A stretch of DNA of 46,129 nt, taken from Dehalococcoidia bacterium. Its GTDB lineage: Bacteria > Chloroflexota > Dehalococcoidia > UBA2979. The notes beneath the pieces were generated by a model. That model worked only from the letters and a program-made list of their open reading frames with translations. It ran no database searches and had not been told where the DNA came from. The DNA is taken from positions 1-46,129 of the forward strand of contig QZJI01000021.1 of assembly GCA_003599735.1 (NCBI GenBank), given 5' to 3'. Each line of letters opens with the position of its first letter. The stretch's first letter is position 1. The translations under genes were made by a program, and so were the position numbers. Below, one piece after another: positions 1 to 537 of this stretch.

Positions 1-317
1 ATGGGAAGACCTTCCTCATCGCAGAAGAGCAGTCAGTGGCAGTACTTCCACCGCTGCATCTCCTCGCAGGGACAGATCCAGAACTTCTTCTCGATCTCCG
101 CCTGCTTGTCCTCGAAGAACATGCAGGGGCAGAGCGGCTTCCCGAGTTCGTCGGCGTTTCTGGCGAGGCCGATGACGAGGAACTCGGTGATCTCGCGCTG
201 CGGGTGGAGGTGGGTGCCGGACTTCTCGGCGAAGTTCTCGACGAACTTCCACATCTTCGCCATCGTCTCGGGCTTCGCGATGGAGCGGTCGGCGTCGGAC
301 GGCTGGTCGAGGGTCAC
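1..317 (-). CDS. Ferredoxin-thioredoxin-reductase-type catalytic selenoprotein, 3' end cut by window edge
   Basis: From the GTG at 317-315 the protein reads ...KPLCPCMFF...FWICPCEEM...WKYCH, giving CPC (63-65), 16 residues, CPC (82-84), 8 residues, C93-H94. This is the exact spacing of the FTR catalytic subunit, whose signature ends CHC. The expected final Cys codon is TGA (33-35). The same frame then continues LLFCDEEGLP to base 1 with no other stop, matching the CHC-L-L-F run usual in the family. I read the TGA as selenocysteine (U95). In FTR, four Cys bind a 4Fe-4S cluster and the second Cys of the first CPC and of CHC form the redox disulfide, so Sec would replace a catalytic residue. GGAG lies six bases upstream of the GTG; ATG at 263 and 254 are alternative starts. 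A tRNA-Sec gene is divergent 124 bp away. FTR-type fold is near certain; its partner (thioredoxin or other disulfide) is unknown. Confidence 0.86.
4..15 (-). promoter_or_regulatory. Candidate bacterial SECIS hairpin
   Basis: In the minus-strand mRNA a GGAA/UUCC stem with a GGUC tetraloop begins 18 bases after the TGA. Bacterial SECIS elements are small hairpins just 3' of the UGA, with G at the start of the apical loop; position and loop agree. The stem is only four base pairs as seen and the window edge hides any lower stem, so this is tentative. Confidence 0.4.
33..35 (-). other. In-frame TGA read as selenocysteine
   Basis: The TGA stands exactly where the FTR family has the second Cys of CHC. 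TGA differs from the Cys codon TGC at one base. Readthrough restores a family-like continuation, and selC lies nearby. The alternative is a true stop producing an inactive protein, which the conserved downstream residues argue against. Confidence 0.82.
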
Positions 318-428: not shown

Positions 429-434
429 TAGGAT
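429..434 (+). promoter_or_regulatory. Candidate -10 box for selC
   Basis: TAGGAT ends six bases before the first base of the tRNA-Sec, which places a start site at or next to the mature 5' end. The same flanked box, CGCTAGGATGGCG, recurs at 2875-2887 before the oxidoreductase gene at 2909. No good -35 box is visible. Confidence 0.4.
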
Positions 435-440
435 GGCGTT

Positions 441-537
441 GGGAGTGGATGGCGTCCGGTGATGTCCGCGATCTTCAAAATCGACGTGGGGTCGCGTTGC
501 GGTCCCAGGTGGGTTCGACACCCACGCACTCCCGCCA
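441..537 (+). tRNA. selC: Selenocysteine tRNA (anticodon TCA)
   Basis: The 97-base gene has an acceptor stem GGGAGTG/CACTCCC with discriminator G534 and encoded CCA. The TCCGGTGA D-arm block is typical of bacterial tRNA-Sec. The anticodon arm is CGAT/ATCG around a seven-base loop with TCA at 475-477. An eight-base-pair variable arm (488-495/499-506, loop GTT) closely resembles the E. coli one, and the T arm is GTGGG-TTCGACA-CCCAC. The long variable arm and TCA anticodon exclude ordinary tRNAs. It reads UGA when delivered by SelB. selA, selB and selD are not in the window. The adjacent FTR-like gene with an in-frame TGA is its obvious client. Confidence 0.95.

Follow-up and report, generated by a model that had tools for sequence, protein, structure and literature searches.

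We consider it probable that selC, the gene for the selenocysteine tRNA (tRNA-Sec), is an old resident of a thioredoxin locus in the Dehalococcoidia, and that ftrB-U, a gene for a selenocysteine-containing FTR catalytic chain, entered this locus later in the family studied here, where its product likely reduces the neighbouring TrxA. The window, by which we mean the whole stretch of 46,129 nucleotides that was analysed, makes up an end of contig C8 in an uncultured Chloroflexota genome (G000), which we place in the class Dehalococcoidia, as its closest relatives in the genome collection are titled Dehalococcoidia or Chloroflexi bacteria. The features on which the argument turns are the following:

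1-20, minus strand: SECIS hairpin GATGAGGAAGGTCTTCCCAT(C), its final base lost at the contig end
1-317, minus strand: ftrB-U, FTR catalytic-chain selenoprotein gene with a GTG start at 317, cut by the contig start
4-15, minus strand: SECIS core GGAAGGTCTTCC, 17 nt past the TGA, with GGUC as its apical loop
33-35, minus strand: in-frame TGA, read as selenocysteine (Sec), at the Cys87 position of Synechocystis FTR in an ungapped alignment to 1dj7_A
318-440, no strand: divergent intergenic region of 123 bp, from ftrB-U to selC
429-434, plus strand: TAGGAT, a -10-like box 6 nt before selC, by consensus only and unproven as a promoter
441-537, plus strand: selC, tRNA-Sec with a UCA anticodon, a long variable arm and an encoded CCA, from ARAGORN and Rfam

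A preliminary description of this DNA had placed a full tRNA-Sec at 441-537, 124 bp from the start of a probable FTR-like selenoprotein gene and out of view of selA and selB. The tRNA is genuine: ARAGORN called tRNA-Sec with anticodon TCA at 441-537 on the plus strand, and the covariance model RF01852, the check that the description had itself proposed, scored 65.9 bits at 441-533 against a gathering score of 47, with 534-537 (GCCA) forming the discriminator and the encoded CCA. It is the only RF01852 match above the cut-off in the genome. The spacing is exact, as the GTG at 317, with GGAG 5 nt upstream in the window, lies 124 bp from position 441, and a GTG or ATG at this start point is kept in most relatives. 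Furthermore, selA and selB do lie away from selC, on contigs C61 and C6 of the same genome. No selD match was found in this 70%-complete assembly; the gene is present in all four other members of the genus, and we counted the Sec machinery as present on the basis of selA and selB in the genome itself and selD in these four congeners.

A TANNAT box ending 6 nt before selC occurs at 21 of 31 family loci, as against 2 of 31 at a control position, which suggests that selC in this family may have its own promoter. A scan of positions 1-1000 of the window for a sigma-70 promoter and a terminator found none. Downstream of selC are genes on the minus strand for a CsbD-like stress protein (978-1193; PF05532) and an MFS transporter (1512-2858), with a degenerate tandem repeat (cgtgatgcctctgcgtgatgccctcgatgtgagggctc-like) between them at 1195-1345; an MFS gene is also found near selC in several relatives. 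In other genomes, we counted only strong tRNA-Sec matches, with scores from about 60 bits upwards. Matches of about 50 bits were rejected as second selC copies, being many per genome set, shorter and similar to ordinary long-arm tRNAs. Two strong copies stand 4.5 kb apart in one genome (G061:C68, 7946 and 12427), a second strong match occurs in another (G102, C9:1177), and in a third (G012) selC is found at the extreme ends of two contigs (L097 on C65 and L098 on C29), as if a repeated selC had broken the assembly.

The FTR-like gene, previously described only as a probable selenoprotein gene, is by its sequence a genuine one. Its product matches the FTR catalytic chain (PF02943) with an E-value of 3.4e-25 and 88.6 bits, against a curated cut-off of 22; about 57 C-terminal codons are missing in comparison with L071, and part of the SECIS also falls outside the window. 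The codon in question is TGA in 62 of 81 homologues, the window included, and encodes Cys at the same position in the other 19, with coding conserved on both sides of the TGA. The core GGAAGGTCTTCC stands exactly 17 nt past the TGA in all 62 Sec genes and in none of the 19 Cys genes. Similarly, the Sec genes show no variation at the third positions of the codons GAA GGT CTT, compared with a major-base frequency of 0.37-0.53 in the Cys genes, and the lower stem covaries (GATG/CATC to GACG/CGTC), so that core and stem together mark a SECIS after the UGA. As the position of the bulge varies by subtype, RNAalifold produced no usable consensus from the raw segments, and we derived the hairpin from direct folding and from covariation. 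The GGUC loop, which we take to be that of the E. coli fdhF element, also occurs past the TGA of SelD (G029) and FdhA (G033) of the family. In the FTR tree, the Sec sequences make up one clade (support 99/98), which branches from within the Cys forms of Chloroflexota.

The ftrB-U product aligns without gaps to Synechocystis FTR at each of its six Cys positions, 55, 57, 74, 76, 85 and 87 (1dj7_A, 4e-24), and the TGA turns the CHC motif at Cys87 into CHU. In FTR, positions 57 and 87 are known to be the redox pair and the remaining four Cys (55, 74, 76 and 85) the cluster ligands; all are present here, with Sec at 87. The variable chain, FtrA (PF02941), was found in none of the 44 family genomes, with a positive result in the Synechococcus control, and this is thus not a heterodimer of the plant type. 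FtrB-U is probably a ferredoxin-type thioredoxin reductase that works without FtrA. Against NF041072 (FtrB_double_U), the truncated protein, with its one TGA, reached 53.1 bits, where the cut-off is 160. Other families of the class do have FTR homologues in which two in-frame TGA codons occur (G047, G067, G070, G071, G098, G118, G129 and G132), and these are likely to be members of the double-selenoprotein FtrB family. A search of viral contigs found no FtrB-U relatives.

The divergent pairing itself recurs in the comparison of gene neighbourhoods that the preliminary description had proposed. Among 44 family genomes (that of the window and 43 others), 33 have FtrB-U. A tight divergent selC, separated from ftrB-U by about 90-140 bp, is found in 12 of these, from six genera (G000, G001, G003, G004, G011, G013, G019, G022, G025, G026, G036 and G041), and a looser one, sharing the contig of ftrB-U and lying within 5 kb of it, in seven (G009, G010, G016, G018, G021, G032 and G035), so that 19 of 33 are divergent within 5 kb. 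In G017, selC lies 9 kb from ftrB-U on the same strand; in the remainder it is on another contig (nine genomes) or was not found (four). In several relatives the contig stops no more than about 200 bp from ftrB-U. Seven family genomes lack selA, selC and selD (G006, G015, G030, G037, G040, G042 and G043); four of them (G006, G015, G040 and G042) have a Cys FTR, the others have no FTR, and none has FtrB-U. One Sec and one Cys copy coexist in G005, and G026 has two ftrB-U copies, one of them nearly identical to that of G035, possibly through bin mixing. The ftrB-U genes of other families lie away from selC.

The wider neighbourhood of selC is a thioredoxin locus. The complete gene order in the family is selC(-) [trxB(-)] ftrB-U(+) trxA(-) csoR(+) plsX(-), and trxB often lies between selC and ftrB-U where these are 1.4-2.6 kb apart (G010, G016, G018 and G032). 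One genome (G008) has trxB, about 90 bp from selC, in the place that ftrB-U occupies in a member of the same genus (G022), and no FTR was found in it; another (G014) has trxA-trxB-selC, also without FTR. Outside the family, trxA and/or trxB lie upstream of selC on the same strand at 32 of 60 class loci, from about 25 families, and trxB (or trxA where trxB is absent) usually ends about 10-230 bp before selC. The genes plsX and csoR are often in the same order there (plsX-csoR-trxA-trxB-selC). The trxA-trxB-selC arrangement thus recurs widely among the families of this class (L230-L289, for example L241, L236, L238, L258 and L287). By comparison, selA or selB is near selC at 6 of these 60 loci and FTR at none. 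No trx gene was found near selC at 29 loci taken phylum-wide, nearly all outside the class, with flanks of 1.5 kb on either side as against 5 kb for the class loci; with the narrower flank, a trx gene is near selC at 11 of 20 loci from the class. Some selC loci are rearranged, both in the family and outside it, and many contigs are short.

That the pairing might come from chance or assembly, with MAG contigs joined or broken near selC, is a thought invited by a window that begins inside ftrB-U and by relatives' contigs that end close to ftrB-U or selC. However, the same divergent order is found in independent assemblies, and the tight pair stands on contigs of 543 kb (G025:C3), 141 kb (G022:C2), 123 kb (G011:C12) and 109 kb (G001:C7), which argues that it is no assembly accident; we regard such an origin as extremely improbable. 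The preliminary description went further, proposing that the two genes are inherited together and that this protein may be a main reason for keeping Sec decoding. The 12 tight pairs in six genera and the absence of the Sec form from family genomes without Sec machinery speak for an inherited unit with FtrB-U as main client, as does the precedent of fdhA, the only selenoprotein gene in Pseudomonadales, beside selA-selB-selC (PMC1794560). The genus of the window adds to this, for SelD and FdhA have no in-frame TGA in its other four members (G001-G004 for SelD, with Cys read at the Sec position in G001; the window's own genome has only a partial FdhA match), so FtrB-U may carry more weight in this genus. 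Most genomes of the family, on the other hand, have a Sec-SelD. Furthermore, selC stays in the trx locus without FTR both in the two family genomes described above and at the trx-linked loci outside the family, other families show no linkage of ftrB-U to selC, and the window's own genome contains a second selenoprotein candidate. This is a CMD/AhpD-like gene (G000:C56:3733-3981; L220) whose in-frame TGA yields the motif CPFU and is directly followed by a hairpin, the same arrangement occurring in another genus (G005:C7; L221). That FtrB-U holds selC in place is not the best reading of the pairing, and the unit as a whole seems to us distinctly unlikely; what survives is the narrower idea of FtrB-U as an important client of Sec decoding within the genus.

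A further alternative, compatible with our preferred reading, would make the locus a selenium and redox unit, in which thioredoxin and its reductase power selenide formation or selenoprotein recycling and selC is co-regulated with them. The class-wide linkage of selC and trx genes across about 25 families fits this idea, and thioredoxin systems reduce selenite. However, selA, selB and selD lie outside the locus in the family, the -10-like box of selC speaks against simple co-transcription, and function does not follow from linkage alone. We therefore rate this alternative as doubtful, although less so than the inherited unit. A bolder version of our own reading is that FtrB-U replaced the NADPH-dependent TrxB as a ferredoxin-driven, selenium-dependent reductase in a selenium-redox locus of the Dehalococcoidia, making the recharging of thioredoxin dependent on Sec decoding encoded beside it. 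A TrxB match at 1e-50 is absent from 12 of 44 family genomes, and 11 of these 12 have FTR, which is consistent with FtrB-U standing in for TrxB; the sole genome with neither is G043 (75% complete). The window's own genus, however, keeps trxB on another contig (G000:C9), and FtrB-U would be an additional enzyme there and not its only thioredoxin reductase. This extension is offered tentatively, as a possibility well short of an even chance.

Returning to the reading that we prefer, of selC as the older resident of the thioredoxin locus, the ancestral arrangement would have been (plsX)-(csoR)-trxA-trxB-selC, with selC just downstream of the trx genes and co-oriented with them. A single-Sec ftrB-U would then have entered in the family, convergent to trxA, and trxB would have left its position or been lost in several genera, making ftrB-U and selC direct divergent neighbours; selC beside ftrB-U has a -10-like box of its own. 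In the FTR tree, family FtrB-U does not form one clade against that of other families, which may reflect repeated entry into the locus or branching left unresolved in so short a protein. The likeliest role of FtrB-U is to reduce the adjacent thioredoxin through a [4Fe-4S] cluster and the Cys57/Sec87 pair; ferredoxin or another low-potential donor would supply the electrons, with no FtrA subunit involved. We infer the order of events by parsimony, and the activity and the electron donor from sequence comparison.

The significance of these findings is that they link tRNA-Sec to the thioredoxin system in genomes across the class. The genomes also offer a natural series, from trxB only, through trxB with ftrB-U, to ftrB-U only and to Cys-ftrB after the loss of Sec decoding, and this series makes the replacement of a thioredoxin reductase, and its selenium dependence, testable.

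Selenoproteins of the FTR type were reported in 2008 from the Global Ocean Sampling set (PMC2398784), and a double-Sec FTR family is represented in NCBIfam as NF041072, FtrB_double_U (PMC13188914). The protein described here is like these in having Sec at a redox Cys of the FTR catalytic chain and a SECIS past the UGA, but differs from NF041072 in having one Sec, at the Cys87 position, and in keeping Cys at position 57. Its gap-free alignment at six Cys positions (4e-24) is shared with the cyanobacterial catalytic chains (1dj7 and 2pu9), from which it is set apart by Sec in place of Cys87 and by the lack of FtrA in the 44 family genomes. In being a stand-alone catalytic-chain domain it resembles 4tpu_A, an FTR-like domain without FtrA (match 1.7e-08); that entry, however, was deposited as a rubredoxin, whereas only the FTR domain was found here, with Sec instead of Cys. 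Our search of the open literature turned up no account of selC next to trxA-trxB or next to ftrB. Single-Sec FtrB-U is thus a variant of a known FTR selenoprotein family, in a setting that we did not find described there. Other arrangements of selC have been described, beside selA-selB with fdhA (PMC1794560) and embedded in selB (PMC13188914). The neighbour of selC is non-random in all of these cases; in the Dehalococcoidia, however, that neighbour is the thioredoxin system or ftrB-U.
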